Shown: one piece after another, positions 3,605 through 61,827 of the stretch
Layout of the letters: each line of letters opens with the position of its first letter
Numbering within the stretch: position 1 is the first letter of the stretch
Origin: a virus
Strand: one strand, 5' to 3'
DNA length: 61,827 nt
IMG/VR virus record: IMGVR_UViG_3300043411_000598
Coordinates: 1 to 61,827 of that record
The notes under the pieces: model-generated
Databases searched by the model: none
Seen by the model: the letters and a program-made list of their open reading frames with translations, nothing else
What the model was told of the DNA's origin: nothing
Translations under genes and position numbers: made by a program

Positions 3605-3650
3605 TGGCGGTTTGTTGGGCGGGGATGTGCAGTCCCCTTACCCTAGACGC

Positions 3651-3688: not shown

Positions 3689-3798
3689 CGTTTTAAAATG
3701 TCGTCTGGATGTCCCCGACTTCTTCCCGTTCTTGAGGCCTTTGCGGCTCAACCTCTTCGGCGTTTTCCTAGTTCGGTGCGGCGGGGGCCGGATCGACA
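3651..3798 (-). ncRNA. Candidate ~150-nt small RNA or attenuated leader
   Basis: A transcript starting about 7 bases after the -10 box at 3805-3810 would run from about 3798 to the U-run at 3651. I see no convincing open reading frame with a spaced ribosome site in it. The boundaries rest only on the promoter and terminator signals; RNA evidence is lacking. Confidence 0.35.
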
Positions 3799-3804
3799 GG
3801 TGGG

Positions 3805-3833
3805 AATATACCAAGGCCCGCTCATGGTGTCAA
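3805..3833 (-). promoter_or_regulatory. Near-consensus sigma70-type promoter, leftward
   Basis: On the minus strand TTGACA (plus positions 3828-3833) is followed after exactly 17 bases by TATATT (3805-3810). It points toward the membrane-protein gene and away from the ribbon-helix-helix gene that starts at 3904. It is the best-looking promoter in the window. Confidence 0.7.
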
Positions 3834-3903
3834 TACGCAATGTAACTACATGACGTAGATATAATGTTTGACTAACAGGTGTCGGGGCTGGCATATCAGG
3901 CCT

Positions 3904-4083
3904 ATGGCAAACACCTTTCCGAAGCGGTGGACCGAAGCATTCCAGATGCGGGTTGCGCCCGAATTTCTTGAGAAGCTTGATCGGATTAGCGCTGGCTTAG
4001 GACTGACCCGTTCGGAGGCAATTCGGATGCTGGTGGACGAAGCAGACGCCAAGCTTGAGACTAAGGCCAAACGCTCCCGCTAG
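3904..4083 (+). CDS. Ribbon-helix-helix DNA-binding protein
   Basis: The 59-residue product begins MANTFPKRW and carries the ribbon-helix-helix pattern: a short strand (EAFQMRVAPEFLEKL), a helix, then the typical GLTRSEAIRMLVDEA segment, with a basic tail. I chose the ATG at 3904; an in-frame TTG at 3868 would add 12 unlikely residues. The gene is divergent from the leftward membrane gene and lies just behind its promoter at 3805-3833, so it may regulate that promoter. Proteins of this fold usually bind DNA as dimers to short palindromes; the target is not known. Confidence 0.65.
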   Translation: MANTFPKRWTEAFQMRVAPEFLEKLDRISAGLGLTRSEAIRMLVDEADAKLETKAKRSR

Positions 4084-4208
4084 CCCACAATCCACGCCAG
4101 CGCCGATTCCAGCCAAGCCGCAATCAGATCAGCGCAAACCGTGATCGCCACCCATAGGGGGATAGAGAGGCATAGGGCTATAACGTGCCGCGCTTCGGGG
4201 TGACGCAT
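4080..4208 (-). CDS. Possible 42-residue membrane peptide
   Basis: A leftward frame from the ATG at 4208 encodes 42 residues with one strongly hydrophobic segment (ALCLSIPLWVAITVCADLI). Its TAG stop overlaps the stop of the ribbon-helix-helix gene. A GTG slightly upstream is an alternative start, preceded by an AGAGGGG at long spacing. It may be chance coding; codon-level support is thin. Confidence 0.3.
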   Translation of the reverse strand: MRHPEARHVIALCLSIPLWVAITVCADLIAAWLESALAWIVG

Positions 4209-4272
4209 AGGGATTACTAACACGAGTTGGTAAGCCCCTCTACCCTCGCTTAGGCCAGATAATCTTGGCCTT

Positions 4273-6426
4273 ATGACCGTAAGCACAACCGACTGCCGTT
4301 TCGCCTACTCCGGCGATGGCGTGACCACAGCGTTTAGCTTTCCTCGGAAGGTTATCAGCGCCTCTGACATTACGGTTTATCTGGTCGATGAAACGACCGA
4401 TACAAGCACGCTTCAAACGAACCCGGCGAACTATACCTTTATGGGTTCCGGTTTGTCGAATGGCATTTACGCCACGGCGACCATCACGTTCGTAACGGCC
4501 CCTACTTCAGACCAGCAAGTCGTTATCTTTCGGGATGGCGACTTAGTTCAAGAGGTGGATTTCGAGAGCGAGACGGATGTTCAGGCAGCGCTGAACCGCT
4601 TCGCAGATCGTGACGAAATGAAGCTGCAGCGTTTGAGCGATCAGATCGCGCGCTCGCTTCGCATGGATGACGGCGACCCAGAAGCGACCATGCCGGCGCT
4701 TCCACACAAGGCGTTGCTGGCTAGCAAAATCCTTGGCTTCGACACGGACGGTAATCCAGAGCCGGTTGAAAATAACGGATCCTCGAACGCTGTAACTGCT
4801 GCTGGGTCAACAACCGCGCGCACGCTTGCAGATCGTTTCGGCGATGTCGTGAACGTTCTGGATTTTGGCGCCGTTGGCAATGGCGTCACCGACGACACGA
4901 CGGCGATTAATGCCGCGAACACTTTTGCAGTCGCGGAAGCGCGTGCGCTCTATTTCCCTGGCGGCTATACGTTCCTCTACACCGGCAATGGCCTCACCGG
5001 TTCGGCGATGCGCCTTCTTGGCGACGGCATCTCGCAGTCCGTCATCGTGCTCGGCGCTGGCAAATACCTTGTAAATGACAGCGCGCTTTGGGGCTCGTTC
5101 TATATGAGCGGGCTTCGGATTGTGGATGGCGCCGGCGCTGTGCGCAGCACCTACACAAGCACGATGGTGCAGCTCACCTTCCAGATCAACGACTGCTATT
5201 TCTACGGATATACTGGGCCGTGCATCTCGAACAATTCGAGCGACAACCCGCACTGGCACATTGAGAATTGCATCTTCTGGGGCGGCGATGACACCACGTG
5301 CGTTGGCATTGCGCTGAAGGGTTTGACGGACTCAAACTTCATCGCTCACAACACGTTCCGCAAGAACAAGGTTTGCATCAAGCTCGGTGATGGCGGCAAC
5401 AACGCCTATGTCGATTTCAACGACTTCGTTCAATATGACGGCGGCACGGGCCGGGTTGCGATCCATGTTGTGCCGGATGCGGACGGCACGAACGCGGGAA
5501 CCGGCCTCGTCGTTGGCAAGTCCAACAAGTTCGGCAACGAGAACATCGATAGCTCAGACTTCCGCATCGTCTATGCGGATGAACTGAGCGGCACGTATTT
5601 TGGCGACAAGCTGCCGGATACGTCCACTAACTCGACGGGCTATATTCGCGGCCACAATATCGGCGGCGCGTTCATTGGCGGCGGCTCCAGCCCACAACAA
5701 CCGCTGATCAAGTCGATGACCAAGCGCGTCTTTGGATGCAGCTATACCAATATCGCGATCGGCGGAACGCCTCCGACTTATATCTTGGAGTTTTCACAGA
5801 CGCCGGATGCGCTCGGCGCGAGCGATCCCGAATGGAATTTGATCGGGCCGGTGGTGTTCGATGGCTTTGAGGCTGACGATCTTGCGGGCTTTGCGGCCTG
5901 CTCATCGTACAACAGCGTCAAGGTCTTTGACCCTTCTGGCAGTTCCACATGGAAAACAAAGCAGCCCATCGTAATCGAAAAGCCAGATGACGGTGCCGTA
6001 GGTGCAGCGCTTTGGTTGTATCACAATAGCGCTTCACCAGCAGCGAGCGACATCGCGGGGCTTCTGGTGGTGCGCGGCAACGACAGCGCTGGCAACGTTA
6101 TGAACTACGGCGACGTGCGTCTGTATATCGACGATCCGACCGACGGATCGGAAGACTCGCAATGGCAGATCAGCACGATTGTAGGCGGCGCGTACGCTGC
6201 TCGCCTAGTGGTTCAAAATGGCATCTATTACGCTGGCGGTTCTGACCCCGGCGCCGGTAAGTTCAACGGATTGGCTTTTCACGTTGAGGGCACGCAGGTC
6301 GTTGGCGCGCAAGGCGCAGCGGTGTCGGATGCTTTGACGGGTGGAAGCGCGACGGCTGCCGACTGCGCGACCCAGCTCAATCTCATTCTGGCGCGCCTTC
6401 GGGCGCATGGACTTATCGCTGCGTAG
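4273..6426 (+). CDS. Tailspike 1: T7 gp17-like anchor plus pectate-lyase-type beta-helix
   Basis: The 717-residue product has an N-terminal region (about 1-150) resembling the T7 tail-fibre gp17 anchor (FAYSGDGVTTAFSFP, later VQAALNRFADRDEMKLQRL). A pectate-lyase-3 type beta-helix starts near residue 194 (VLDFGAVGNGVTDDTTAI), and the C-terminus ends in a helix (CATQLNLILARLRAHGLI) common at the ends of phage spike proteins. It would sit on the tail and bind, perhaps depolymerise, host surface polysaccharide. Bases 4862-5808 are repeated without indels in the second spike at 60881-61827. An inverted repeat (ggcca 4253-4257, tggcc 4266-4270) lies just before the ATG. There is no strong ribosome site. 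The enzyme activity and substrate are not evident from sequence alone. Confidence 0.8.
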   Translation: MTVSTTDCRFAYSGDGVTTAFSFPRKVISASDITVYLVDETTDTSTLQTNPANYTFMGSGLSNGIYATATITFVTAPTSDQQVVIFRDGDLVQEVDFESETDVQAALNRFADRDEMKLQRLSDQIARSLRMDDGDPEATMPALPHKALLASKILGFDTDGNPEPVENNGSSNAVTAAGSTTARTLADRFGDVVNVLDFGAVGNGVTDDTTAINAANTFAVAEARALYFPGGYTFLYTGNGLTGSAMRLLGDGISQSVIVLGAGKYLVNDSALWGSFYMSGLRIVDGAGAVRSTYTSTMVQLTFQINDCYFYGYTGPCISNNSSDNPHWHIENCIFWGGDDTTCVGIALKGLTDSNFIAHNTFRKNKVCIKLGDGGNNAYVDFNDFVQYDGGTGRVAIHVVPDADGTNAGTGLVVGKSNKFGNENIDSSDFRIVYADELSGTYFGDKLPDTSTNSTGYIRGHNIGGAFIGGGSSPQQPLIKSMTKRVFGCSYTNIAIGGTPPTYILEFSQTPDALGASDPEWNLIGPVVFDGFEADDLAGFAACSSYNSVKVFDPSGSSTWKTKQPIVIEKPDDGAVGAALWLYHNSASPAASDIAGLLVVRGNDSAGNVMNYGDVRLYIDDPTDGSEDSQWQISTIVGGAYAARLVVQNGIYYAGGSDPGAGKFNGLAFHVEGTQVVGAQGAAVSDALTGGSATAADCATQLNLILARLRAHGLIAA
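4862..5808 (+). repeat. Copy 1 of the shared tailspike beta-helix segment
   Basis: This segment matches 60881-61827 at a constant offset of 56019 bases with no visible insertion or deletion. Similarity is moderate at the start and rises rightward. The final 118 bases (5691-5808) are identical to 61710-61827. Confidence 0.9.
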
Positions 6427-7985: not shown

Positions 7986-8179
7986 TGTGGGAAGTGTATT
8001 TTGGTTTCGGGTCCGTTCAATCTCTCGGCTCTGCTACGGCGGAAGACCCGCCGCGACGTGACAACCTCCGTCGCCTCCGTTCTACCAGTGAAGCATTCTG
8101 CCGAGCGGCTGAGCGTGGTGGCGTAACCGTTGAAGCTGAGCGCGAGCCTATGGGCTTCGCTATTCCTAAGCCGCTTTAG
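7985..8179 (+). CDS. Hypothetical 64-residue protein after the spanins
   Basis: It starts at an ATG overlapping the Rz1 stop and ends 14 bases inside the convergent leftward gene. The product is hydrophilic and arginine-rich in the middle, with no motif I recognise. Support comes only from translational coupling. Confidence 0.4.
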   Translation: MWEVYFGFGSVQSLGSATAEDPPRRDNLRRLRSTSEAFCRAAERGGVTVEAEREPMGFAIPKPL

Positions 8180-9185
8180 CCTGCTGCTTGTCGCGCTCTC
8201 GGAACCAGCGATAGACCGTGGACTTATCCCGGCCCACCTTCGCGGCGATTTCCACAACCTCAAAGCTATCGCGCATGGCGAAGGCTACTGCCTTGGCGTC
8301 CTGCCATTGTGAGATAGAAATAGGCTCAGGCGCAATCGCCTCAGGTTCGGGCGTGGCGGCGGCTGTGGCGGGCGCGGTGGCGAACTGAGAGAACCAGCCA
8401 AGGGTCAGAAGGGCGACGCCACGGCTCAGCCAATGGACGTTGGCGCCGCTATTGGCGCGTTGGGCTGGCGGTGTATCGGTTGCCACGGCTGGGCTGGGCT
8501 CGCGGCCACGTTCCGCCAACGCGTATCCCCAAGGCTCCAGAATGGCCCATGCAAGGAAAATAGCGAACAAAAGCAAAGAGATTTGCCAGTCTTGCGGGAC
8601 CTCGCGCGGAAGCGCCGGCCGCTCGCTAAGCTCCCGCTGCGCCTCAGGCAAGCGTGCAGTGGCAACCGCAGTGGTAGCCTCAAAGATTGCAAGGGCGGCG
8701 CGTTGGCGCTCAGCCATTACGTTGGCAGAATCCGAGGGAAGTTGGCGGCGGGCAGTGTCAATCGAGGCGGTGAGAGTGGCGATTTCATTGGTGAGCGCCA
8801 CGCGCTCAGTCTGACGCGCCACATAGGCCGCACGGTGCGCCGATTGCAGCACCACTTGGGCGCCCTTATCTGCGGAGTAGGCGGCAAACAGAACCGAAAC
8901 GGAATAGAAGGCGATGGCGAGAAGTCGCCAGACGAACGGGGCTTGCGCCAGGCGCGCGAAGTTTACCACGGCGCAGGCCGCAATGACCTGAGCTGCGAGG
9001 CAGGCAATAGCCGCTAAGGCATAGACCGGCCAAAGGGGATCAATGCTAGCCCAATCGCGCGTAAACAGGGCAGGGAAGGCGTTCGCTGCGTTCGCCCAGC
9101 CGAACACGCCAATGGCGGCAATGGCCGCGCTGAGCACGACCAGGGCGAGTTTCAGAGCAATATTGCGGTGGCGCGATTGTCCCAT
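8166..9185 (-). CDS. Membrane protein with periplasmic coiled coil and C-terminal HTH
   Basis: The 339-residue product has membrane segments at about 10-30, 51-76, 85-103 and 200-222, possibly one more at 252-272. A long alanine- and arginine-rich coiled-coil region lies at 108-190. An alanine/proline linker follows, then a C-terminal helix-turn-helix at about 308-330 (VVEIAAKVGRDKSTVYRWFRE). The HTH resembles the homeodomain-like type used by transposases and regulators. One-component membrane-bound regulators (ToxR/CadC style) combine such parts, though usually with the DNA-binding domain at the N-terminus. The gene is leftward, divergent from the outer-membrane protein at 9352, with a perfect inverted repeat at 9240-9260 between them. 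Function is unproven; signalling or exclusion are both possible. Confidence 0.65.
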   Translation of the reverse strand: MGQSRHRNIALKLALVVLSAAIAAIGVFGWANAANAFPALFTRDWASIDPLWPVYALAAIACLAAQVIAACAVVNFARLAQAPFVWRLLAIAFYSVSVLFAAYSADKGAQVVLQSAHRAAYVARQTERVALTNEIATLTASIDTARRQLPSDSANVMAERQRAALAIFEATTAVATARLPEAQRELSERPALPREVPQDWQISLLLFAIFLAWAILEPWGYALAERGREPSPAVATDTPPAQRANSGANVHWLSRGVALLTLGWFSQFATAPATAAATPEPEAIAPEPISISQWQDAKAVAFAMRDSFEVVEIAAKVGRDKSTVYRWFRERDKQQAKAA

Positions 9186-9351: not shown

Positions 9352-9906
9352 ATGAAGTCTTCTGTTCAAGTAGGCGTGGCTCTTGCCGCGTTGGTAGGGA
9401 TCAATGCGCTGGCTACGAATGCTGATGCAGGCGAGTGGTACGGTGCGGTTCGTCTGGGCCAATCGCAAGCCGATGTCAGCGCTGGCGGTTCAACGATCAG
9501 CTTTGACGAGGGCCTTTCTTACGGCGCGGCTGTTGGTACGTCTGTCGGGCCGGTTCGTGTAGAGGCCGGCGTCAATCGTCTCTCCGGTGATTTCGCTGGC
9601 GTAGTGAACGCCGACGCTCTCGATTGGAATGCAACCGCCTACCTCGATCTTCCAGTAGGGGATAACGCTTCGGTTTATGCCGGCGCGGGCCTGGACTACG
9701 TGGACGGATCAGCCTCCATCTATGGCTACGATATTGATGCCAGCGGGGAGGGCTATCACTTCAGCGTTGGCGCCGCTTATAGACTGAGCGCAAACATGAT
9801 CGGTGAGGTTCAGTACACACAAATCACCGCCGATCTGGATACCGATTTCGGCGGCGTGGATCTCGACGCTTCCAACATTAGCGTCGGCGTTCGCTTTGCT
9901 CTCTGA
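9352..9906 (+). CDS. Outer-membrane beta-barrel protein (OmpA-barrel-like)
   Basis: The 184-residue product has a signal peptide (cleavage likely after ATNADA), then alternating polar/hydrophobic strands typical of a small eight-stranded barrel, such as EWYGAVRLGQSQ, GYHFSVGAAYRL and MIGEVQYTQI. It ends in the C-terminal signature ISVGVRFAL with the phenylalanine expected near the end of outer-membrane proteins. It has its own upstream region and is followed by several hairpins. A phage-borne barrel next to the integrase is likely expressed from the prophage and may change receptor properties or host adhesion; this is inferred. Confidence 0.75.
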   Translation: MKSSVQVGVALAALVGINALATNADAGEWYGAVRLGQSQADVSAGGSTISFDEGLSYGAAVGTSVGPVRVEAGVNRLSGDFAGVVNADALDWNATAYLDLPVGDNASVYAGAGLDYVDGSASIYGYDIDASGEGYHFSVGAAYRLSANMIGEVQYTQITADLDTDFGGVDLDASNISVGVRFAL

Positions 9907-10045: not shown

Positions 10046-11011
10046 TTATCCGGCTTTGCGCGCGTTAGCGATCACAGCGGAAACTGCTTTGATGCCTGGG
10101 AGGTTTACTTCGGCGTTGCGCTGAACATAGACGGCATCCGCCATCTTTTCGGAGTCGCCAATGTGATTCGCAGCAGCCGTAAGATTGCCGCCCAAACCGT
10201 GATAAACGAACGTGGCGCTGGAGCGCCGCAAATCATGGATGCGGCAATCTCCAAGGCCAGCGCGAACCAAAAGGCGCTTTAGTCCTGGGTAGCAAGTCTT
10301 GCACCCTTGGCCGTTCCATTCGATCACGAAATTGGAAGTCGCGCGCTCCTTTGCGTCAGAGAGCAGGGCGAACAGAAAATCATCCATCGGTTGATCGGTG
10401 CGCCGCTTCTTGCTGCGTTCCTCTGGCGCTTCGGTGTCTCGAAACCGAATGACGCGGTTTTCAAAATCCACCAGATCCCAAGTGAGTGCGAGCACGGCGC
10501 CGACGCGCTGGCCCGTTACGAGCAGAATATAACCGGCGTAGCGGAGATGGCTCGGCGCGCGGTCCAGTTCCTTCAAGAGACGCGGTAGTTCTTTCTCTGG
10601 ATGGATAACGCGTTCGCGGGCAGGGCCGGTGGGCGGCAATTCAAAAAACGGTTCTTGCGCCTTGTCGATTAGATCGTATTTCCAAGCGTGGCGAAACGCA
10701 GCGCGCATGATCGTGCAACGCTTGCGACATGTGGCCGGCTCTAAATCCTCAAGCCATTCTTGCACGGCATCTTCAACGCGCTGGCGTGAGCCTTTCTTGA
10801 AGTCGTTGATGCGCCAGTCAGCCCAAAGCTTGGTTGGCTCGGCTAGGCAGATGCGCAACGCGCGCGGGGCCTTGCACTTACGATACGCGTTCGGATTGCT
10901 GCGCGCTGCGATGTAGGCCGCGAAGATTTCGCCCACGGTTGGGTTGAGTGTATCGGATTGTTCGGCTGGGTTCGGGGCTTCTGCCCTAACTACTGCGAGT
11001 TGCGCGCTCAC
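10046..11011 (-). CDS. int: Tyrosine integrase
   Basis: The product is 321 residues from the GTG at 11011, chosen because ggag sits six bases before it; a TTG at 11023 would add four residues. The C-terminal catalytic domain shows R169 (TGQRVGA), H259 and R262 (HDLRR), H283 (ANHIGD) and the nucleophile Y295 (AVYVQRN). All expected catalytic residues are present. The N-terminal half has the core-binding region (SRQRVEDAVQEWLEDL onward). It would integrate and, with an excisionase, excise the phage chromosome. I could not identify the attachment site or an excisionase gene next to it. Confidence 0.92.
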   Translation of the reverse strand: MSAQLAVVRAEAPNPAEQSDTLNPTVGEIFAAYIAARSNPNAYRKCKAPRALRICLAEPTKLWADWRINDFKKGSRQRVEDAVQEWLEDLEPATCRKRCTIMRAAFRHAWKYDLIDKAQEPFFELPPTGPARERVIHPEKELPRLLKELDRAPSHLRYAGYILLVTGQRVGAVLALTWDLVDFENRVIRFRDTEAPEERSKKRRTDQPMDDFLFALLSDAKERATSNFVIEWNGQGCKTCYPGLKRLLVRAGLGDCRIHDLRRSSATFVYHGLGGNLTAAANHIGDSEKMADAVYVQRNAEVNLPGIKAVSAVIANARKAG

Positions 11012-11152
11012 TAAGCTCTCCAAATCTCAGGCCGCACGCATCTCATGCTAGGAACGGTGCGGACAAGATGACGTTCGACCTGAACGCTTGAGATTAGGTT
11101 AGCTTGCGGCGTCCGTGGAGACAAGAACGTATTGGCAACTGATGTGGATAGC

Positions 11153-11867: not shown

Positions 11868-12410
11868 CTAGGCCGCAATTGGCGGCAAGTGTTTCCACTG
11901 CTTGCCTGTCGCAATGCGGTTAATTTGAGCGATGCTAACGTTGTAGCGGTCAGCGATTTGTTGCCGCGTCATTGTCTTGCTCGCACAAAGCGCGCGAACC
12001 TCTTGCACATGATTTGGCGTGAGCTTGTGCCGACGCTTCGGATTGTGAGCTGGGCAGTAAACCTTGTTGGCCGTTGCATGTGCCTGATTGGAGGCGTCGT
12101 CAGCCCATTCCAAATTGTCGGCGTGATTGTTCAGCTTGTTCAAGTCGAGATGGTTCACGTCAGGAAGCGCATTAGGGTTGGAGATCCATGCGAGCGCTAC
12201 TGCGCGGTGAACGCGGACTTGCTTTCCAGCGCCGCGCTTACCCTTTGTCACCGGCCCAGGTTCACGCAAGAACATCGCGACAATCACGTAGCCGTTTTGA
12301 GTGACCCTTTGGGTTAGTTCGCGCTTGCTATCGACGCGGCGCACGCGCCCGCAGCGCGTCACCTCATAGGCGCCATAAAACCCCGGCACGATCTTCCATT
12401 CGTCTTCCAC
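11868..12410 (-). CDS. NUMOD4/HNH homing endonuclease
   Basis: The product is 180 residues from the GTG at 12410, picked because GAGAGGA precedes it and the frame clears the neighbouring gene. It has a NUMOD4 segment (EWKIVPGFYGAYEV), an HNH core (VNHLDLNKLNNHADNLEWA) and a C-terminal HTH (MTRQQIADRYNVSIAQINRIATG). Such proteins cut DNA at or near homing sites and spread themselves. It is free-standing within the early operon, with no intron seen around it. Confidence 0.8.
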   Translation of the reverse strand: MEDEWKIVPGFYGAYEVTRCGRVRRVDSKRELTQRVTQNGYVIVAMFLREPGPVTKGKRGAGKQVRVHRAVALAWISNPNALPDVNHLDLNKLNNHADNLEWADDASNQAHATANKVYCPAHNPKRRHKLTPNHVQEVRALCASKTMTRQQIADRYNVSIAQINRIATGKQWKHLPPIAA

Positions 12411-12634: not shown

Positions 12635-13195
12635 TCACCTGTCTGTTCTTGTTGAAGGGGAGGGATCTATCGCACCCGGTACTGTCGGCCAGTAACGCCC
12701 GCTCGCGATCTTCATGGCAGTCGATGACGTTATGCCGTACTCGCGGGCGAGGGATGGATAGCTGGCGCCCGCACGTCGCTTGTCGCGCAACGCGATCACG
12801 TCATCCGGCGTGAGCTTCTTCCACCGCCCTTCATGCTGAGATGCGTCGTAGATGCCAGTGGAACGGGCGTGGTCATGGTTATCTTGCTGCGTGGCCCACT
12901 CAAGATTCGGCACGCAATTATTGGCGCGATCCAAGTCCCGGTGATTGACCTGCGGCTTCCCATCGGGGTTAGGGATGAACGCCAGCGCCACAAGCCTATG
13001 AACCCGCATAGTCTTGGATTGCGAACGGACGCCGTTCTCACGCGGAGCCGGTGGGCCGGCGATCATCGCTACAGTCAAGTAGCCGCGATAGTTGGCTCGC
13101 AAGGTACGCTCGCGCTTGGTCGCGATGAACCGAACGCGGCCGTCATCGCTGACTTCGTATCGCTCAAAGCCCGGAATGGTTCTCCATTCGGTCAA
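12635..13195 (-). CDS. NUMOD4/HNH homing endonuclease
   Basis: The 186-residue product begins with TTG at 13195, eight bases after a strong AAGGAGG; the start overlaps the stop of the upstream gene as TTGA. It has NUMOD4 (EWRTIPGFERYEVSDDGRVR), an HNH core (VNHRDLDRANNCVPNLEWAT) and an HTH-like C-terminus (YPSLAREYGITSSTAMKIASG). It is a diverged relative of the gene at 11868, separated by one small membrane gene. Confidence 0.8.
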   Translation of the reverse strand: MTEWRTIPGFERYEVSDDGRVRFIATKRERTLRANYRGYLTVAMIAGPPAPRENGVRSQSKTMRVHRLVALAFIPNPDGKPQVNHRDLDRANNCVPNLEWATQQDNHDHARSTGIYDASQHEGRWKKLTPDDVIALRDKRRAGASYPSLAREYGITSSTAMKIASGRYWPTVPGAIDPSPSTRTDR

Positions 13196-22589: not shown

Positions 22590-23099
22590 TCAGGTGTTCT
22601 GTCGCCTGCCCTTACTGTTGCTCAAAGCGCGAGCTAAAGGCCAGCCATCCGCCAGTCGCCTGCTAAGTGTACCGGGTGCAATTCCAACGCGTTCGGCCCA
22701 CTCTTTGCGCGATAAAGTCACGCCCATATGCGTTAGTGGTTTCGCCGTTACGTTCTCTAGTCCGAATTTTCCTTTGCTCGGGTGAACTCGTCCCAGCACG
22801 CGGAAAGCATGAAGTGTGTTTTCTGCGTTACTGCACCACTCTAGATTTTGCACGCTATTGTCTTTTTTGTCGCCATTCCGATGGTTGACTTGCGGATGGG
22901 CCTGCGGATTGGAAATGAAAGCTTCAGCTACGAGACGATGAACACGAAAACACCGCTCACGCAGAAGGACACGCATGTATCCTTTGAAATTAGCTTGCTG
23001 TTTAAGAATATTGCCGCGCGGGGATCGCACGCGCCCAAGGTTAGAAACCTCATACCCGCTCGCCGCGATAATCGGACGCCATTCCTCTTGCTCATCCAT
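22590..23099 (-). CDS. NUMOD4/HNH homing endonuclease
   Basis: The 169-residue product has NUMOD4 (EEWRPIIAASGYEVSNLGRV), an HNH core (VNHRNGDKKDNSVQNLEWCS) and a C-terminal NUMOD1-like DNA-binding segment (VTLSRKEWAERVGIAPGTLSRRL). It is inserted between the 90-residue gene and the DUF1367-like gene. It is the third member of this family in the leftward operon. Confidence 0.8.
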   Translation of the reverse strand: MDEQEEWRPIIAASGYEVSNLGRVRSPRGNILKQQANFKGYMRVLLRERCFRVHRLVAEAFISNPQAHPQVNHRNGDKKDNSVQNLEWCSNAENTLHAFRVLGRVHPSKGKFGLENVTAKPLTHMGVTLSRKEWAERVGIAPGTLSRRLADGWPLARALSNSKGRRQNT

Positions 23100-23538: not shown

Positions 23539-24156
23539 CTACCGCTCCAAGCGCTGCAGTTGGCGAATTGTATCCTCCACTTCGGCTAAGAACTTTTCGA
23601 CTTCTGCCTCCATCGCTTTGATAGCGGTCTCGTCGCGATGAACGCGCTTGGTGAACATGCGAAGGTTCTCAGGCAAGCGAGGTTCGTAACTGACCAGATC
23701 AACCCACTGGCGCCCAGTGCATGCCATCTGCCAGCACATTTGCTTTTGGTAGTCAGGCTCGATTTCGCCCGTGAGCAACGTCTCTATGTGCGTATGAATT
23801 GCAGGGGCTTTAATCTCTACGAGACCATCCGCACCTACGAGCCGATCAGGTGAAGCGCCGGCCATCTCAATTGTTGGGTGAGGGACGAACGCAATAGTCT
23901 CAAGCGTCACGTCATTCATGAAGGCGTAGAACTGGCGCGCGTTGTCCTCGTTAGCGTTGCCCCACTCCATATCGGCCGATTTGAAACCAACCGTAGGACA
24001 GCCCGTCAGACGTTCAGCCACAAGCTCGCCAAGGTAGCGCTGGCGTGATGCGCTGACACCGCCGCTCTTTACCTTGCGAACGATGTCAGCGACGCGGGAG
24101 GCCGTGACCTTGCCGCATCTGAGTTGATGCCACTCAGGTGTGCCTTGTTCGATCAC
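23539..24156 (-). CDS. YqaJ-type (lambda-exonuclease-like) recombination nuclease
   Basis: The 205-residue product begins with EQGTPEWHQLRCGKVTASR, the entry motif of YqaJ nucleases. The catalytic D104 (SPDRLVG), E114-x-K116 (GLVEIKAP) and the later YQKQMCWQMACTG follow. These enzymes chew the 5' strand of duplex DNA to give a 3' overhang. It overlaps the Erf-type annealing gene just upstream, its expected partner. Confidence 0.85.
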   Translation of the reverse strand: MIEQGTPEWHQLRCGKVTASRVADIVRKVKSGGVSASRQRYLGELVAERLTGCPTVGFKSADMEWGNANEDNARQFYAFMNDVTLETIAFVPHPTIEMAGASPDRLVGADGLVEIKAPAIHTHIETLLTGEIEPDYQKQMCWQMACTGRQWVDLVSYEPRLPENLRMFTKRVHRDETAIKAMEAEVEKFLAEVEDTIRQLQRLER

Positions 24157-24929
24157 TGGGCCGTTTCCTTGGTCTTCAGCTTCTTGGCTAGAAGCTTGGC
24201 GCGTTCGTCCAGCATGGCGTTGGCCGCTTTGAGTTGGCTCTTGCGCAGATCGGGGAGGGCATCAACCTTTAGCGTTTCGCACAGACGCGCTGTGTCGGCC
24301 TTGGTCTCGTCAATGCGAGCGCGAAGCGCGACTAGCTCATCCTCGCTGATTGGCTCATCGCCGCCAGCGGAGCGCCCATCATCGTCATCTAGTTCAGACG
24401 CCAATCCGAGCGCTGCAATGAGCGTATAGCGGCACAGATACGATAGCGTTGAGCCTATCGCCTGGATGCTGTTTTTGTTGCCGCTCTTGTCAGCCTCAGC
24501 GGAGAGTGTCGTTTCCTCGAAATGCCCGTCACGATGCGCGAGAATGCACGTCACCGTTACCGAGCCTTCTTGCTTCGTGCGAAAGCGATAGGAGAGGTTG
24601 TGCGCTGCGAGGATGGGATCCACCTCCTTAGCGTAGGCGGCCATGTCAGCGTATTTGCTGTTGTGGCCGTCACGGTTTTTCGTCACCGGTTTGATCTGCG
24701 CTTTAGCGTCAGCAATCGCCGCGTTGAAAGCCTTGCGTCCCTGGTTCGCCTCATAGCGCTCCTGCAAGCCCATGAGCTTGTCCAGAACGTCAATGCTCTG
24801 GCCGTTCTCTACGGCTCGGCTAAGCATCTCCATTGGGGTGAGGGCGGTTGTACGCGTCGGCACATTCGAGACTTGAACCTGTTTACCCTCAACCTCGATA
24901 ACGATCTCGTCTTCTTTTCCGTCTGCCAT
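24153..24929 (-). CDS. erf: Erf-family single-strand annealing protein
   Basis: The 258-residue product contains the Erf core: FNAAIADAKAQIKPVTKNRDGHNSKYADMAAY, then SYRFRTKQEGSVTVTCILAHRDGH and SIQAIGSTLSYLCRYTLIAALGLA. It ends in a charged helical region. Erf proteins bind single-stranded ends and promote annealing, working with a 5'-3' exonuclease such as the one directly downstream. The ribosome site lies just before the ATG. Confidence 0.85.
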   Translation of the reverse strand: MADGKEDEIVIEVEGKQVQVSNVPTRTTALTPMEMLSRAVENGQSIDVLDKLMGLQERYEANQGRKAFNAAIADAKAQIKPVTKNRDGHNSKYADMAAYAKEVDPILAAHNLSYRFRTKQEGSVTVTCILAHRDGHFEETTLSAEADKSGNKNSIQAIGSTLSYLCRYTLIAALGLASELDDDDGRSAGGDEPISEDELVALRARIDETKADTARLCETLKVDALPDLRKSQLKAANAMLDERAKLLAKKLKTKETAQ

Positions 24930-36446: not shown

Positions 36447-37025
36447 ATGGTGTCAGAGAAATCAAAACGCGGCGGTAAACGCAACGGTGCAGGCCGTAAG
36501 AGCAAGGCAGAGAAGACTGCCGCACTTATTGCTGATGGCATCCTCTCTCAACCGAATGAGGACGATCCCAAGGAGCCAGTTCTAGGCCGTCCAACTGAAT
36601 ACAAGTCAGGCTACCCAAAGCAGGCAGAGAAGCTTTGCCGTCTTGGCGCAACAGATTTAGAGCTTGCGGACTTCTTCGAAGTGGACGTTCGGACCATCTA
36701 CAGATGGGCTCAGGCACACGATGCTTTTTGTCAGGCTCTACGGGTTGGCAAGGAGGCCAGTGATGATCGGGTTGAGCGCAGTCTCTATAACAGAGCTGTT
36801 GGTTACTCACACAGCGCCGTCAAGATATTCATGCCAGCCAATGCGCAGGCTCCCGTTTATGCGCCATACACAGAGCATGTGGCCCCTGATGTAGGCGCTG
36901 CATCTTTATGGCTTCGTAACCGTCGCGGCGACAAATGGCGGGATAAGCAGAACCTAGAGCACACAGGCAAGGATGGCGAGCCAATCATGGTGACGGCCAT
37001 TCGACTAGTCGGACCAGATGGCTGA
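36447..37025 (+). CDS. Terminase small subunit
   Basis: The 192-residue product has a basic start (KRGGKRNGAGRKSKAEK) and an HTH (LCRLGATDLELADFFEVDVRTIYRWAQAHDAFCQAL). After that comes VERSLYNRAVGYSHSAVKIF, a pattern common to small terminases. It ends NLEHTGKDGEPIMVTAIRLV and overlaps the large subunit gene by eight bases. It would recognise the packaging site. Confidence 0.8.
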   Translation: MVSEKSKRGGKRNGAGRKSKAEKTAALIADGILSQPNEDDPKEPVLGRPTEYKSGYPKQAEKLCRLGATDLELADFFEVDVRTIYRWAQAHDAFCQALRVGKEASDDRVERSLYNRAVGYSHSAVKIFMPANAQAPVYAPYTEHVAPDVGAASLWLRNRRGDKWRDKQNLEHTGKDGEPIMVTAIRLVGPDG

Positions 37026-38364
37026 AGCCGAACATACGATCCAAATTCCGCCAAAGTTGATCCCAGTATTCGTGGCGCCTAACAAGCGGATACGGGGCGC
37101 GTTCGGTGGCCGAGGCTCCGCCAAGACTCGATCATTCGCCAAGATGGCCGCTGTGCGCGGTGTGATCGCTTCTCAGGCGGGCCGCGAAGGCATTATCTTG
37201 TGCTGCCGCGAGTTTATGAACAGCCTCGATGATAGCTCGTTGATGGAGGTAAAGGCGGCGATTGAATCTGATGAATGGCTGAAGTCACACTATGACGTTG
37301 GCGAAAAGTACATCCGCACCAGAGACAGGCGTGTCTCATTCAAGTTCGCCGGGTTGCGCCACAATATAAACAGCATCAAGTCAAAGGCGAAGATACTGCT
37401 ATGCTGGATTGATGAAGCGGACCCTGTATCCGATCAAGCGTGGGAAAAGCTCATCCCTTCTGTGCGTGAGGACGACTCGGAGATATGGGTTACATGGAAC
37501 CCGGAAAACCCGCGCAGTCGGACGGAGGCGCGCTTTCGCAATAGCCCAGATGATGACGTGGCCGTTGTTGAACTAAACTGGCGTGACAATCCTTGGTTTC
37601 CGTCTGTTCTTGAGCGTGAGCGCCGCGTTTGCGAGCGCGATAATCCAGAAGAATACGAGCATATCTGGGATGGCGCCCACAGAACCAGCTTCAAGGGTTC
37701 GTATTATGCCAAGGGACTTCTTGCGGCGAAGCGCACGGATCGTATCGCGCCACTTTCGGCAGAGCCAAACCTAAGGGTTTACGCTCACTGGGACATTGGC
37801 GGCCCCAACAAGAAGGCTGACGCGATGACGGTCGTGGTCAATCAGTGGGTCCAGAACCGTATTCATGTGCTCGATTATATCGAAGGTCAGGGCCAGATGC
37901 TGGCCTATTATCTGACCGAATTGCGCAATCGTGGATGGGATGAGCACCTTAAGCCCTTTATGGTCCTGCCTCACGATGCTGGCCAAACACACGCCGACAA
38001 CCCAACCGGGATGGACTTCGAAGCGCAGCTTAAGAAGGCTGGCTATCAGACCAAAAAAGTCCACTCCCCTTCTGGGGCCGTGCTGCAGCGGATCAAGACA
38101 ACGCAACAGCTTTTCACTAAGATATGGTTCAACAAATCGCCTTACGGCGGTGAGTTGGACCGGACGCTGGCGTTGCGCCAGGCGTTAGCTTGGTATCACG
38201 AAAAGCGCAGTGATGATGAGCGGGAGATTGGTCTTGGCCCAGACCATGACTGGTCGAGTCACGCGGCGGATGCGTTCGGCATGATGTGCATCGATTATAA
38301 AGAACCGGCAGCTAAGATTGCTCGTCCATCGCACTATCAAACCTCAGACACGGTTCTAGGCTAA
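37018..38364 (+). CDS. Terminase large subunit (PBSX type)
   Basis: The 448-residue product has Walker A GGRGSAKT (30-37), Walker B ILLCWIDEAD (126-135) and ATPase coupling WVTWNPEN. The nuclease domain has D259 (HWDIGGP) and a late HDWSSHAADAFGMM. This matches the XtmB/Terminase_3 group. It cuts and pumps DNA into the prohead using ATP. The group is known to include headful packagers, so circular permutation is possible. Confidence 0.88.
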   Translation: MAEAEHTIQIPPKLIPVFVAPNKRIRGAFGGRGSAKTRSFAKMAAVRGVIASQAGREGIILCCREFMNSLDDSSLMEVKAAIESDEWLKSHYDVGEKYIRTRDRRVSFKFAGLRHNINSIKSKAKILLCWIDEADPVSDQAWEKLIPSVREDDSEIWVTWNPENPRSRTEARFRNSPDDDVAVVELNWRDNPWFPSVLERERRVCERDNPEEYEHIWDGAHRTSFKGSYYAKGLLAAKRTDRIAPLSAEPNLRVYAHWDIGGPNKKADAMTVVVNQWVQNRIHVLDYIEGQGQMLAYYLTELRNRGWDEHLKPFMVLPHDAGQTHADNPTGMDFEAQLKKAGYQTKKVHSPSGAVLQRIKTTQQLFTKIWFNKSPYGGELDRTLALRQALAWYHEKRSDDEREIGLGPDHDWSSHAADAFGMMCIDYKEPAAKIARPSHYQTSDTVLG

Positions 38365-47646: not shown

Positions 47647-48258
47647 ATGGCCTCGCAAAATGACATCTGCAACTGGTCGCTATCGATGCTCGGTGAAACC
47701 AGCATCAACGACATCAGCGACAGCGTAGAACGTGCTGAGCTTTTAACTGCCGCTTGGGGTCCGGTGCGCGATCAGCTTTTGCGTGAGAAGCTGTGGCGGT
47801 TCTCAATTCAGCGTGCTTCGATTGCCGCTGATGTAGCGACGCCAGATTGGGGCTTTGACTACCAATACAGCATCAATGGCGATGTGGTGCGCGTCATTCA
47901 GGTGAACGACTATTACCCGCAAGGGGTCTATTATCCTGACTACGTGACTGGCGATAGTTCGCTCTACAAGATCGAAGCCGATAAGATTTTGACCAATCTC
48001 TCAGCTCCGCTGAAAGTGCGTTGGGTCATTAATTCGATGGACGTGGGACTTTGGGACCCTTGCTTTGCGCGGGTGATGGCCTGTGATCTAGCGGAGCGGA
48101 TTTGCCCGCGTGTCACTGGCTCTGAGAATATCCTGCAGCGTGTCGCTGCACAACGCTCGGCCGCTATGATGGCTGCTCAACGCGCCAACGCGCTAGAGCA
48201 GCCGCCTCAAATGATCAACGATAGTACGTGGATCATGTCGCGTATGCAGGACTACTAA
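47647..48258 (+). CDS. Tail tubular protein A
   Basis: The 203-residue product (MASQNDICNWSLSMLGETSI) has RAELLTAAWGPVRDQLLREKLWRFS and PCFARVMACDLAERICPRVTG, which match the podovirus tail tubular protein A family. It builds the ring that joins the connector to the nozzle. It overlaps the tail tubular B gene by one base. Confidence 0.8.
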   Translation: MASQNDICNWSLSMLGETSINDISDSVERAELLTAAWGPVRDQLLREKLWRFSIQRASIAADVATPDWGFDYQYSINGDVVRVIQVNDYYPQGVYYPDYVTGDSSLYKIEADKILTNLSAPLKVRWVINSMDVGLWDPCFARVMACDLAERICPRVTGSENILQRVAAQRSAAMMAAQRANALEQPPQMINDSTWIMSRMQDY

Positions 48259-50738
48259 TGGCCCAGCAGCGCCAGCTTAACATCACGTTTGCGTTAAATA
48301 GCGGCGAGCTTTCGCCGTTGATGGCGAACCGTCAGGATCAAGCCCGCTATGCCTACGGCGCACGGCGGATGCGCAATTTCATCCCATCGCTTCAGGGGCC
48401 GGCGCGTAAGCGTCCAGGGCTTCGCTTCGTTTGCGAGATATCGGATTCTAGTCACCGCGCATGGCTTGTGCCGTTCGTCTTCTCCCAGCGCGACGCTTGG
48501 GTTTTGATCTGCGGTGAGAGCACGGTAGGCTTTATCACCGATCACGGCCAAGTGCTGGAAACGGCCATTCCAATTACCTCGATGACCAATGCGAGCACTG
48601 GCGTTTTCACGCGGGTTGCGCATGGGCTCTTAGCCAACCAAGAGATTTACGTGACCTCCCTCCCCGGCACGACCGGGATAGCTGGTCGCAACTTTCGTGT
48701 GAACACTGTCCCGACTGCGGACACGTTCACACTGAAAGATTTGTACGGCACGGTGCTGAACACCACCAGCAGCGGAACCTATACCGGCCTTGGCACAGTG
48801 CAGCGTGTCTATAAAATCGTCTCGCCCTATACGGCTGCAAACCTAACCGAGAGCGACACCAATTGCAGCCTTCTCTCGTTTGCGCAATCGGGAGACGTTT
48901 TAGATATTTGCGTGCCGGATTTTCAGCCCCGGCAATTGACGCGCACAGCCGCAACCTCATGGGCGTTCACTTCATTTGAGCCTGACAATGGCCCGTTTGA
49001 AACGGTGGACCCAGATCAAACGATTACGGTTTATGCAGGCGCTGCGACGGGAAACACGACGCTCACCGCTTCCTCGGCTATCTTCACCGCCAATCACGTA
49101 GGCTCGCTCTTTCTTTTAGAGAAGCGCCTCACCGATGCGATCACGGCGTGGGAAGTCGGCAAGTCCATAACCACAGGTGATGTGCGCCGCAGCCAGGGCC
49201 ATTATTACGAGGCTTTGAACACGGCCACGACTGGCACGATCACGCCGACCCATACCGAAGGCGCCCGCTACGATGGCGATACCGGCGTGCAGTGGCAATA
49301 TCTCCATTCCGGTTACGGATGGGGCGAGATCACCGCTTATAATTCCACCACCAGCGTTGATATCACGGTTATCTCACGCATCCCGGCCCAAGCTGTAGGC
49401 GCTGGCAATCCATCAACCCGTTGGGCGTTTGGCTCATGGTCTGCGGCCTATGGCTGGCCGACGCACGTTACCTATTTTAGAGAGCGTAAGACCTTTGCGC
49501 GCGACACCCGAATTTGGGGATCGGTGCCGGCCGACTTCAACAATTTCGCGCAACGTGACGCTGGCGTTGTCGCTTCAGATTCATCCTATGATATCGATAT
49601 CCGTTCTGGCGTGAACGATGCCATTCAGTGGCTTATGGCGTCCTCTGATCTGCTTGTAGGCACAGAGGGCAGTGAGTTCTCCGTTGGTGAAATCTCTTCA
49701 GCCGATCCGCTCGGCCCTGACAATATCGCAGCCCTCTCTGGGCCTGGCTACGGCTCAAGACGTGTAACGCCATGCATTGTCAATGATGCCGTGATGTATG
49801 CCCTTCCCTCTGGGCGGGTCATGCGTGAGCTGCGCTTTACGTTCGAGACGGACGGCTATTCAGCCCTTAACCGCACCGCCTTTGCTGAGCATATTGCACG
49901 CGGGCAGATGATCCAACTGGCCTACCAGAAAGAACCCGAGTCCATTGTTTGGAGCGTCTGTAACAATGGCGATCTCCTCTCGATGAGTTTCGAGCGTGAG
50001 CATGATCTCGTGGCTTGGGCCAAGCATTTGCTCGGCGGCGCTTTTAGCACAACCACCAACGCTATTGTCGAAAGCGCTTGCGTTATCCCATCCCCTGACG
50101 GCACGAGGGATGAGCTTTATGTGATCGCCAAGATGACGGTGAATGGCGCCACCAAGCGCTATGTCGGCTACCTTGAAGATCATTGGGAGCCTGACGACGA
50201 CGATTTGGAAGATCAGTTCTACGTTGATTGGGGCCTTACCTATTCAGGAACGGCAACGTCCACCATCTCGGGGCTACATCATCTAGAGGGTAAAACCGTT
50301 TCCGTTCTCGGTAACGGCAAGGATCTTGGCGATAAGGTCGTGACGGCCGGCGCTATCGATCTAGGCTCAGCCTCGGTCACGGTCGCGCAAGTTGGTCTCC
50401 CTTACGATGCTATCCTTGAAAGCATGAACCTCGTTAAGCCTGGCCTTAGCGCAAAAGCAGTGGACGTTTGGGTTCGGTTTATAGGCACCGTCTCAAGCTT
50501 TTGGCACATGACGACACAGAGGCTCTTGAGCACTGATCCAACGCCAACGCCGCGTGCGGTCGAGATGGGAAACATCACCGTAAGCGGCGTAGCGCAGCCC
50601 GTCTCTAGGCTCGTAAAGGTCAAGGGTGAATCCGGCAATGGTCGCGAGCTGACGTGGGTTATCACCCATAACCGGCCAACCTATTGTAACATCGCAGGCG
50701 TTGCTCCCGATATGGTCGCTGTCGGTAAGGATGCGTGA
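48258..50738 (+). CDS. Tail tubular protein B (nozzle)
   Basis: The 826-residue product starts at the ATG at 48258 (MAQQRQLNITFALNSGELSP). It has GARRMRNFIPSLQGPARKRP near the start, as in tail tubular B proteins, then long beta-rich regions and YFRERKTFARDTRIWGSVPA in the middle. It forms the tip of the short tail. It overlaps the next gene by four bases. Confidence 0.82.
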   Translation: MAQQRQLNITFALNSGELSPLMANRQDQARYAYGARRMRNFIPSLQGPARKRPGLRFVCEISDSSHRAWLVPFVFSQRDAWVLICGESTVGFITDHGQVLETAIPITSMTNASTGVFTRVAHGLLANQEIYVTSLPGTTGIAGRNFRVNTVPTADTFTLKDLYGTVLNTTSSGTYTGLGTVQRVYKIVSPYTAANLTESDTNCSLLSFAQSGDVLDICVPDFQPRQLTRTAATSWAFTSFEPDNGPFETVDPDQTITVYAGAATGNTTLTASSAIFTANHVGSLFLLEKRLTDAITAWEVGKSITTGDVRRSQGHYYEALNTATTGTITPTHTEGARYDGDTGVQWQYLHSGYGWGEITAYNSTTSVDITVISRIPAQAVGAGNPSTRWAFGSWSAAYGWPTHVTYFRERKTFARDTRIWGSVPADFNNFAQRDAGVVASDSSYDIDIRSGVNDAIQWLMASSDLLVGTEGSEFSVGEISSADPLGPDNIAALSGPGYGSRRVTPCIVNDAVMYALPSGRVMRELRFTFETDGYSALNRTAFAEHIARGQMIQLAYQKEPESIVWSVCNNGDLLSMSFEREHDLVAWAKHLLGGAFSTTTNAIVESACVIPSPDGTRDELYVIAKMTVNGATKRYVGYLEDHWEPDDDDLEDQFYVDWGLTYSGTATSTISGLHHLEGKTVSVLGNGKDLGDKVVTAGAIDLGSASVTVAQVGLPYDAILESMNLVKPGLSAKAVDVWVRFIGTVSSFWHMTTQRLLSTDPTPTPRAVEMGNITVSGVAQPVSRLVKVKGESGNGRELTWVITHNRPTYCNIAGVAPDMVAVGKDA

Positions 50739-58849: not shown

Positions 58850-59860
58850 ATGGCATCCCCCGCAGGCCCACAGTACATTCAGGTTATCACTTCAACCGGG
58901 CCAAAGGTTGGGGCGACGATTGTTTACTCAACTACGGGCGGAGCGCCGCAAGCCGTCTATTCAGATTCCACGCTGCTTGTGTCTCTTGGCGCAACGCTTG
59001 ACGGCTCCAACGCTTCCGATTCTGAGGGCCGGTTTCCAATCCATTGGCTAGACCCTAGCCTCTCCTACAAACGCATCATCAAGCTATCAGATGGATCCAC
59101 CTGGCGCACGGATAATCCCGTGCAGACGGCTGACACGTCGATTGCGACGGCCTTGCTCGCTTATGTTGCGAAGGCTGGCGGAGACATGACCGGGCCTCTC
59201 AATTTCTCCGAGAGCGCATCGGTCACGGCTGCATCCAGCATAAACCTCAACAACATGACCGGCAACTTTGGGCATGTTACTGGCGCCACCGCGATTGATA
59301 CGATGGTGCTGCAACAAGGCGCTTGGCGTATTCTCGTCTTTGACAGCACGCCGCAAATCAATCACTCGTCTAATTTGCTGATCGAAGGCCAAGCTAATAT
59401 CACTGTCGTCGCAGGCGATGCCTGCCTCGCAATTGGCGAAGGCGCAGGCATAACACGGATCATCAAGTTCTTCTTGATTGACGGCAAGCCACTCATTGAG
59501 CCCGCAGAAATCATCGTTCCGGTTGGAGACGAATCTACGGCGATCACTACGGGAGTAGCCAAGCGCACGTTCCGCATGCCGTTTGCCATGACATTGAATG
59601 CAATCCCACGAGGCTCGCTCACCACGGCTAGCAGTTCCGGCATTGTGGACATTGACATCAAGGCTAGTGGCTCCAGTATTTTTTCCACCCGGCTCACGAT
59701 TGATGCCAACGAATCCACTAGCACAAGTGCAGCAACGCCTGCAGTTTTGAGCGATACGTCACTCGCTGACGACGAGCAGATCACGATTGACATCGTGGAT
59801 GACGGGACGAACGCGGCCGGGTTGAAAACGCTGCTCCGTGGTTTGAGGCGCAACCGGTGA
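58850..59860 (+). CDS. Tail fibre protein, 336 residues
   Basis: The product has a beta-rich start, SIATALLAYVAKAGGDMTGPL in the centre (a linker typical of phage fibres) and a C-terminal beta-rich region. A fibre or fibre-anchor role is likely. Confidence 0.65.
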   Translation: MASPAGPQYIQVITSTGPKVGATIVYSTTGGAPQAVYSDSTLLVSLGATLDGSNASDSEGRFPIHWLDPSLSYKRIIKLSDGSTWRTDNPVQTADTSIATALLAYVAKAGGDMTGPLNFSESASVTAASSINLNNMTGNFGHVTGATAIDTMVLQQGAWRILVFDSTPQINHSSNLLIEGQANITVVAGDACLAIGEGAGITRIIKFFLIDGKPLIEPAEIIVPVGDESTAITTGVAKRTFRMPFAMTLNAIPRGSLTTASSSGIVDIDIKASGSSIFSTRLTIDANESTSTSAATPAVLSDTSLADDEQITIDIVDDGTNAAGLKTLLRGLRRNR

Positions 59861-60345
59861 GCGTTGTTCTTTTTCTTGATAGCGGCGACGCCGCATCTGG
59901 CGGAACGGATGTAACGCCTAGCGCGCTGAATTGGGGCAACATCAGCGTCACGGATACCTCAACGGGGTATGAAAGCAATTTTGCTTCCGAGCAAACGCTC
60001 GCGGCCATTGATACACAAATCACGTTGAACGCCGCGTGGACTTCAAGCTCAGGAAGCCCGGCCAAGGGCCAGTGGATCAAGAACGGCGTGGCGGTTCAAT
60101 CGCTAGCGCTTACGCCCGTTACGGTGAACGCCAGCGTTGGCGACAAACTCTATTTCAAGATGTACGCAGGCTACACCTACCCTCTTGGAAATTACGATAC
60201 AGGCACGGTGACTGTAACGAACTTGAGCGATGGCGGCGCTGCAATTGATGCGTTCAACTTCACTGTTCAATTTGTCTATAGCGGTGGCGGCTCGACCAAC
60301 CCCGGAGATGCCACGACTCCTGGCGGCGGTGGCGATGCCAACTAA
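59857..60345 (+). CDS. Beta-rich tail protein, 162 residues
   Basis: The product starts with GTG overlapping the previous stop. It is serine-, threonine- and glycine-rich with a GGGSTNPGDATTPGGGGDAN tail. It is probably a tail accessory protein; the family is unknown. Confidence 0.5.
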   Translation: MSVVLFLDSGDAASGGTDVTPSALNWGNISVTDTSTGYESNFASEQTLAAIDTQITLNAAWTSSSGSPAKGQWIKNGVAVQSLALTPVTVNASVGDKLYFKMYAGYTYPLGNYDTGTVTVTNLSDGGAAIDAFNFTVQFVYSGGGSTNPGDATTPGGGGDAN

Positions 60346-60378: not shown

Positions 60379-61827
60379 ATGCTTTCACACCGTAAAGGCG
60401 TCCTCCTCGATGGCATCGGCTCTGAGCTGGTGCGCGCATCTACGGGGGGTGTTCGCAAGACGCTGAGCAAGTGGCTTGGCGATCTTTCAAATGCGATCAA
60501 CCTTGGCGATGTAGCCTCTACGTTCACATCAGGCGACGCCACCCCTTCGGTCTTGAATAACTCCAAGTTCATCACAGCAGGCACTACGGCGATCACCAAC
60601 TTTGACGATGGCGTTGAAGGCCAGACGATCACGGTCTATCGCGGCGCTTCTGACATTTCGATTACCGATAACGCCACTATCGATCCAATTATCGCGGGCG
60701 ATATTACGCTTTCAACGGCTCGCCCTAGCGCTACGTTTCGCCTTGCCTCTGGCGTCTGGAAGCAAGTTGAAGAAGCTGGCGCCCTCTCCTCTGCTATGGC
60801 GCCAGTGGTTCAGGCTGCGACTACAGCATCCGCTAGGCAAAAGTTTGGCGTTACTGGCGCGATCAATCTTATGGACCCTATCTATGGAGCCGTTGGAGAT
60901 GGCGTTACGAATGATCGTCCTGCATTTGTCCTCGCTTTAGCAGATGCAATCTCGCAATCGCGTGCGCTTTACGTTCCTGGCGGATACACGTTCTTTTATG
61001 ATGGCGCAGGGCTAACCGGCGCTCAGATACACATCGTCGGCGACGGCGTTTCGCAGTCCATTATCGTCCTCGGCGCAGGCAAATACCTCGTAGACGACAG
61101 CGCGCTTTGGGGCTCATTCCATATGAGCGGCCTGCGCATTGTGGACGGCGCGGGCGCTGTGCGCAGCACCTACACAAGCTCGATGGTGCAGCTCACCTTC
61201 ACGGTGAGAGACTGCTATTTCTACGGCTATACTGGGCCATGCATCTCGAACAATTCGAGCGACAACCCGCACTGGCAGATTGAAAACTGTATCTTCTGGG
61301 GCGGCGATGACACGACCTGCGTTGGCATTGCGCTCAAAGGTCTGACCGATTCCAACCTCATCAAGCACAACACGTTCCGTAAGAATAAGGTTGCGATCAA
61401 GCTCGGTGATGGCGGCAACAATGCCTATCTCGACTTCAACGACTTCGTTCAATACGACGGCGGATTTGGCCGCGTTGCGGTCCATATCGTGCCTGATGCC
61501 GATGGCACGAACGCGGGCACCGGGCTTTATATCGGCGCGAGCAACAAGTTCGGCAACGAGAACATCGACAGCTCAGACTTCCGCATCGTCTATGCGGATG
61601 AACTGAGTGGGACATATTTCGGCGACAAGCTGCCGGATATGTCCACTAACTCGACCGGCTACATTCGCGGCCACAATATCGGCGGCGCCTTCATTGGCGG
61701 CGGGACCAACCCACAACAACCGCTGATCAAGTCGATGACCAAGCGCGTCTTTGGATGCAGCTATACCAATATCGCGATCGGCGGAACGCCTCCGACTTAT
61801 ATCTTGGAGTTTTCACAGACGCCGGAT
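60379..61827 (+). CDS. Tailspike 2, 3' truncated at window end
   Basis: From the ATG at 60379 the frame is open for 483 codons to the edge. The N-terminus (MLSHRKGVLLDGIGSELVRA) is unlike that of tailspike 1. The part from 60881 is a close copy of the beta-helix of tailspike 1 (GAVGDGVTNDRPAFVLALAD onward). Thus two spikes share a host-binding or enzyme domain on different anchors. The last 118 bases are identical to 5691-5808, so the true 3' end is not seen. Confidence 0.8.
   Translation, partial: MLSHRKGVLLDGIGSELVRASTGGVRKTLSKWLGDLSNAINLGDVASTFTSGDATPSVLNNSKFITAGTTAITNFDDGVEGQTITVYRGASDISITDNATIDPIIAGDITLSTARPSATFRLASGVWKQVEEAGALSSAMAPVVQAATTASARQKFGVTGAINLMDPIYGAVGDGVTNDRPAFVLALADAISQSRALYVPGGYTFFYDGAGLTGAQIHIVGDGVSQSIIVLGAGKYLVDDSALWGSFHMSGLRIVDGAGAVRSTYTSSMVQLTFTVRDCYFYGYTGPCISNNSSDNPHWQIENCIFWGGDDTTCVGIALKGLTDSNLIKHNTFRKNKVAIKLGDGGNNAYLDFNDFVQYDGGFGRVAVHIVPDADGTNAGTGLYIGASNKFGNENIDSSDFRIVYADELSGTYFGDKLPDMSTNSTGYIRGHNIGGAFIGGGTNPQQPLIKSMTKRVFGCSYTNIAIGGTPPTYILEFSQTPD
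60881..61827 (+). repeat. Copy 2 of the shared tailspike segment
   Basis: This matches 4862-5808 without indels. The identity rises from left to right and becomes complete over the last 118 bases (61710-61827). Confidence 0.9.

Follow-up and report, generated by a model that had tools for sequence, protein, structure and literature searches.

One beta-helix domain on two unrelated tailspike anchors in an uncultured temperate podovirus

This locus raises the question of how a single beta-helix domain came to be carried by two tailspike genes with different N-termini in one phage genome, and whether its two copies are being kept alike. The window analyzed here is a complete IMG/VR record of 61,827 bases, which is classed as linear. 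It belongs to an uncultured temperate podovirus and codes, in addition to the features listed in Table 1, for internal virion proteins and for a protein of 1368 amino acids with an endolysin-type stretch. The nearest relatives of its portal protein (about 37-46%) were found in a group that includes Stenotrophomonas phage BUCT708, Burkholderia phage BcepC6B and environmental contigs. When the last 12 kb of the contig were compared by megablast with 50,697 phage records, no match was obtained. The reading that we favor, with a probability of roughly 0.7, is that module shuffling put one depolymerase-type helix on two anchors and that local conversion may have acted in addition.

Table 1. Features of the phage contig that bear on the two tailspike genes
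Feature	Position	Strand	Remarks
phrog_684 virion structural protein	3-2681	+	892 aa; 5' end cut by contig start
Spike 1, putative primary tailspike	4273-6426	+	717 aa; PF12708; locus directly after phrog_684 gene as in relatives
Spike 1, putative virion anchor	4273-4722	+	about residues 1-150; family alignment A3; 13/16 related records; PDB Dpo31
Spike 1, shared beta-helix block	5020-5808	+	
Spike 1, copy of 118-base exact repeat	5691-5808	+	
Spike 1, C-terminal region	5809-6426	+	no spike 2 counterpart seen
Integrase	10046-11023	-	
RecE-like exonuclease	23539-24156	-	
Erf-like ssDNA annealing protein	24153-24929	-	
Small and large terminase	36447-38364		
Portal	39119		
Major head protein	42617		
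Tail tube proteins	47647-50738		
Tail-fibre-like protein	58850-59860	+	336 aa; just upstream of spike 2
Orphan protein	59857-60345	+	162 aa; between fibre and spike 2; no match
Spike 2, putative accessory tailspike	60379-61827	+	483 aa present; 3' end missing
Spike 2, N-terminus	60379-60873	+	165 aa; no recognized family
Spike 2, beta-helix cap	60883-61038	+	61% to spike 1
Spike 2, shared beta-helix block	61039-61709	+	87.3%, flat; dN 0.064, dS 0.457
Spike 2, copy of 118-base exact repeat	61710-61827	+	ends on last base of contig

Spike 1 carries an anchor that is common among the relatives of this phage. It was present in 13 of 16 related podovirus records, and the anchor family matched domain 1 of PDB Dpo31 (N-domain 28lx) with a profile E-value of 3e-38. 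In the related records checked, the anchor lies downstream of the phrog_684 gene; in three of them (L044, L047, L055) it begins 6 to 84 bases past the end of the phrog_684 match and in others about 1 kb downstream, and the gene order of BcepC6B likewise runs from a phrog_684-type gp17 to gp18. The conservation of the anchor and its locus after the phrog_684 gene thus indicate that spike 1 is the primary spike of the lineage. A first-pass annotation of this DNA had called its N-terminus T7 gp17-like, which holds only as a faint likeness: residues 1-184 matched no Pfam entry, PF03906 included, at E ≤ 10, and hhalign aligned the anchor in register with residues 1-150 of T7 gp17 at a probability of 19% (E 0.0012).

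The proposal that the two N-termini are unrelated was borne out by hhalign (probability 0.3%). Comparison of the spike 2 N-terminus with phage records gave no confident match (best E 0.3, including the N-terminus of E. coli phage tailspikes). The extents of both genes were also as first described, with spike 1 complete and spike 2 running with an open 3' end into the contig edge. Spike 1 matched PF12708 with 46.2 bits against a curated cut-off of 27; spike 2 scored 23 bits, which is below this cut-off, but it is 81% identical to spike 1 over the domain.

Behind the N-termini the two genes align over 947 bases (about 60881-61827) with no indel, in agreement with the earlier description; the offset is fixed at 56019 bases and 315 codons are gapless. 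BLASTN gave 89% identity over 791 bases (E=0), and the proteins share 80.8% of their amino acids over 343 residues. It had been proposed that similarity climbs gradually from the 5' to the 3' side. Here, change-point analysis indicated that identity changes in steps: the fit with the best BIC places breaks at 61039 and 61710 and so yields three segments of 55%, 87.3% and 100%. About 30 unrelated leading bases are part of the first segment (60850-61038), the identity of which is 61% from 60883 onward. Inside the middle block of 671 bases there is no trend (Spearman rho 0.002, p=0.96). Since dS is about 0.46 over most of the shared block, it is doubtful that any process is keeping the two domains alike. 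For the cap segment we counted 51% identical residues between the spikes, and comparison of the spike 2 cap with tail proteins from several unrelated phages gave 40-46%; the former value is little above the latter, so the cap match may reflect family resemblance and lie outside the shared copy. GC3 was 0.73-0.75 in both helix copies, 0.57-0.62 in both N-termini and 0.64 in the spike 1 C-terminus. Such a contrast is expected of a mobile module, but it is a weak sign, as the capsid gene itself has a GC3 of 0.70.

The last 118 bases of the contig are identical to the corresponding stretch of spike 1, as had been noticed before. The contig has no other exact repeat of at least 40 bases, and the longest identical runs elsewhere in the shared block measure 38 bases. 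Given the upstream rate, about nine synonymous differences would be expected in the tract and the probability of finding none is 1.1e-5; a permutation test yielded p<5e-5 by base and 2.5e-4 by codon. However, these P values are conditional on the contig ending at a repeat, and they are thus suggestive of a local exchange and not proof of one. The chance that a contig end falls in the repeat is about 0.2-0.4% (118 or 236 of 61827 positions), and among the other loci that we fetched none of 138 ends was repeated inside its own locus. Because this chance is so low, the repeat most likely caused the contig to break, and a contig end on the last base of the only repeat of this size is to be read first as an assembly break. 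The visible length and position of the identical tract are tied to this break, and beyond its first k-mer the tract could have been filled by spike 1 reads. More generally, a similarity that peaks at a contig edge should be read together with the assembly break.

Spike 2 appears truncated because the contig stops at the exact repeat, and its incompleteness in the record counts against our preferred reading. Several observations bear on where the gene continues. The phrog_684 gene still covers profile positions 7-840 of 840 and is thus cut near its start; a search of viral contigs by peptide pattern found no relative of its 892-residue product. In relatives an endolysin-type protein is followed by the phrog_684 gene, and the right end of our contig runs through proteins of 1368, 95, 336 and 162 amino acids into spike 2. 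Taken together, this gene order, the cut gene and the order in relatives indicate that the contig ends most likely join; the right end would continue into the left end after a gap that takes in the C-terminus of spike 2 and a few codons, and the phrog_684 gene probably follows spike 2 in the real genome. If the ends join, spike 2 is separated from spike 1 by the phrog_684 gene and a minus-strand ORF. The homology of helix relatives to spike 1 mostly stops at residues 507-514, and the contig ends at a position equal to spike 1 residue 512. The two spike genes may part again where the helix ends, and a branch at this domain boundary would explain the break.

Both helix copies look functional and under purifying selection when judged from their sequences (dN/dS ratio 0.14 over 61039-61707). 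In a conservation alignment (A2) of nine sequences, which comprised both spikes and seven distant relatives and contained 28 invariant columns, none of the family-conserved residues present in spike 1 was absent from spike 2 over the shared block. The helices are predicted to be of the pectate-lyase fold and depolymerase-type, and cleavage of a polysaccharide would be in line with this fold family; PDB homologues match mainly the cap region. The nearest relatives of the helix are phage spike proteins and a protein of Sphingomonas insulae. The latter, the best non-phage relative (28-29% identity, 28.7% over 261 aa, E 3e-27), is plasmid-encoded (L022, 14617-16569) and lies inside an exopolysaccharide gene cluster, which gives a hint as to the substrate. 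That this substrate is an exopolysaccharide from a sphingomonad-like host is a reasonable guess and no more than that. The helix family occurs in spikes of several phage morphotypes, and a further spike or fibre gene is often its neighbor. Searches of viral contigs and phage records for close relatives of the two spikes, the helix and the exact tract found none, and a scan of genome contigs with the helix returned only a Calothrix match (31% over 90 residues). Among 14 related viral records none had a second full helix copy; in record L032 a second ORF has just the cap in common. In the phage records with a helix or an anchor (24 and 52, respectively), each was found in one place per record.

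According to the favored reading, spike 1 would be the standard virion-anchored spike of the lineage, and spike 2 an accessory spike that was inserted together with the fibre and orphan genes just upstream of the phrog_684 virion gene. One domain on two anchors requires a recombination or copying event, so that this part of the earlier suggestion of gene conversion or recent recombination stands; its supposed sign, the gradient, does not. The helix module would have passed from one gene to the other by copying, or a second allele of it would have been imported; the junction would lie just inside the helix, at about 61038. Another local exchange probably took place near the helix end, plausibly by means of the phage's own RecE-like exonuclease and Erf protein, the genes of which adjoin each other. 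The same particle would then display either a larger number of copies of one enzyme or two variants of it that differ slightly. We infer both the virion location of the two spikes and the route of helix copying. On a circular map the direct repeats are about 5-6 kb apart and a crossover between them would delete the phrog_684 gene; only non-crossover copying would therefore be viable.

Other explanations start from the same alignment. The idea that ongoing conversion (concerted evolution) keeps the domains alike, while a branched complex multiplies one binding activity, is unlikely in our view. It draws on the lack of differences in the terminal tract, on the recombination genes of the phage and on the frequent occurrence of helix relatives in phages with at least two adjacent spike or fibre genes, but the profile has no gradient, most of the block has diverged, the identical tract is tied to the contig end, and spike 2 does not adjoin spike 1, as the phrog_684 gene stands between them. 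A more elaborate form, in which recurrent non-crossover conversion maintains two anchors and a branched or double spike of one specificity gains avidity while the second copy serves as a store of variation, appears quite unlikely. A branched spike as such is possible; our single-sequence AlphaFold2 models reached pLDDT values of 33 and 35, which is too poor for docking. Two separate imports of related spike-module alleles with no exchange inside the genome would be a tentative alternative of somewhat greater weight, although still improbable. The 87% identity and the dS value would fit two alleles drawn from a phage population, divergence is far greater between the caps than between the helices, and helix relatives occur across morphotypes; on the other hand, the identical terminal tract would need a further recent exchange or a shared recent source, and the allele was not found in any phage or viral record searched.

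The contig break also bears on the possibility of an assembly or strain chimera, in which the right end stems from another phage or the assembly strayed into reads of spike 1 for its final 118 bases. The coincidence of the contig end with the last base of the repeat speaks for such an artifact. However, the 671 bases that precede the repeat show evenly spread differences from spike 1 and keep an open frame under purifying selection, which implies that they are not copied spike 1 reads. A slip can have affected the 118-base tract alone. Moreover, the order of the tail module leads naturally into spike 2 and then into the left-end gene, and we regard a chimera as very unlikely. That the spike pair is varied by a diversity-generating retroelement, or by another programmed mechanism, has a next to negligible probability. 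The portal is related to the Bordetella BPP-1 and BcepC6B group, but the differences between the spikes fall mostly at third codon positions and no reverse transcriptase was seen among the ORFs annotated, which make up a part of all ORFs. The substitution spectrum has no adenine bias (13/85 in spike 1, 18/85 in spike 2), and on this ground a retroelement or hypermutation was rejected.

Two-spike podoviruses, exchange of enzymatic domains, fibre paralogs and intragenomic domain transfer are already known. Klebsiella phage KP32 (Przondovirus) has dual receptor-binding proteins, gp37 and gp38, with specificities K3 and K21 (PMC8262889). Like the present phage it is a podovirus with two spikes, the first of which has a conserved virion anchor, and with enzymatic domains that behave as exchangeable modules. 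In KP32, however, the two enzymatic domains differ in specificity and the second spike attaches to the first (PMC8262889), whereas here the domain is shared. In the KP32-type layout the second spike directly follows the first; here, provided that the two ends of the contig join, spike 2 is upstream and a virion gene lies between. Klebsiella phage IME205 carries two depolymerases, Dpo42 and Dpo43, which act on one capsule type, K47, in different strain subsets (PMC7034173), and two depolymerases on one capsule type have also been described elsewhere (PMC13385381). We considered Dpo42/43 as a characterized member of the helix family and rejected it, as its homology to our spikes is confined to the linker/cap region; the IME205 pair thus has no helix homology to the present spikes, whereas here the domain itself is 81% identical between the two. 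Vequintavirinae have two very similar short tail fibre paralogs (PMC8594841) and resemble our phage in possessing near-duplicate receptor proteins, but those are similar paralogous fibres, whereas here only the helix module is common and the N-termini are unrelated. In phage 0305phi8-36 the virion proteins gp142 and gp209 have a domain in common, which is explained by intragenomic recombination (PMC2147016). That transfer is ancient (41% identity) and the function of the domain is unknown; the present one is more recent and concerns receptor spikes. Klebsiella phage YC1 (L027, 51-6140) has three adjacent spike genes that share their N-terminal 84-92 residues (55-64%). This is the opposite layout, with a common N-terminus and a differing remainder, but here too neighboring spike genes share a module. 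A looser analogue is found in L032, where neighboring fibre-like proteins (3588-4544 and 5038-5967) have different N-termini and a common C-terminal domain of 113 residues (53%). The literature searched yielded no phage in which one helix sits on two unrelated anchors.

The usual interpretation of dual-spike phages is that different binding domains widen the host range, or that one anchor is kept while its domains change. The present layout is the reverse, with two unrelated anchors for the same domain, and it shows the anchor, besides the binding domain, as a free module. The phage is also a natural test case for the benefit of copy number or of small variants of a single enzyme.

Several further genes of this contig deserve mention. 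The last 110 residues of the 336-aa fibre are 47-59% identical to Sphingomonas and cyanobacterial phage proteins (residues 221-331 are 57% identical to a protein of Sphingomonas phage Carli), and this C-terminal part is a widely shared module. The minus strand of the tail module codes, in the interval that separates spike 1 from the phrog_684 gene, for a 270-aa protein with hydrophobic stretches (2726-3538), for which no family was found in PHROGs, Pfam or NCBIfam. Three related HNH-type homing endonucleases, one of them with NUMOD4, are encoded at 11868-12275, 12635-13066 and 22590-23099 (all minus strand) and may be another cause of gene conversion in this phage. A 339-aa protein (8166-9185, minus strand) combines membrane-like hydrophobic stretches with a weak C-terminal helix-turn-helix, which is an odd pairing. 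Adjoining the integrase there is a phage-encoded outer-membrane beta-barrel protein (9352-9906, plus strand; PF13505, 59.8 bits), which could change the surface of the lysogen.
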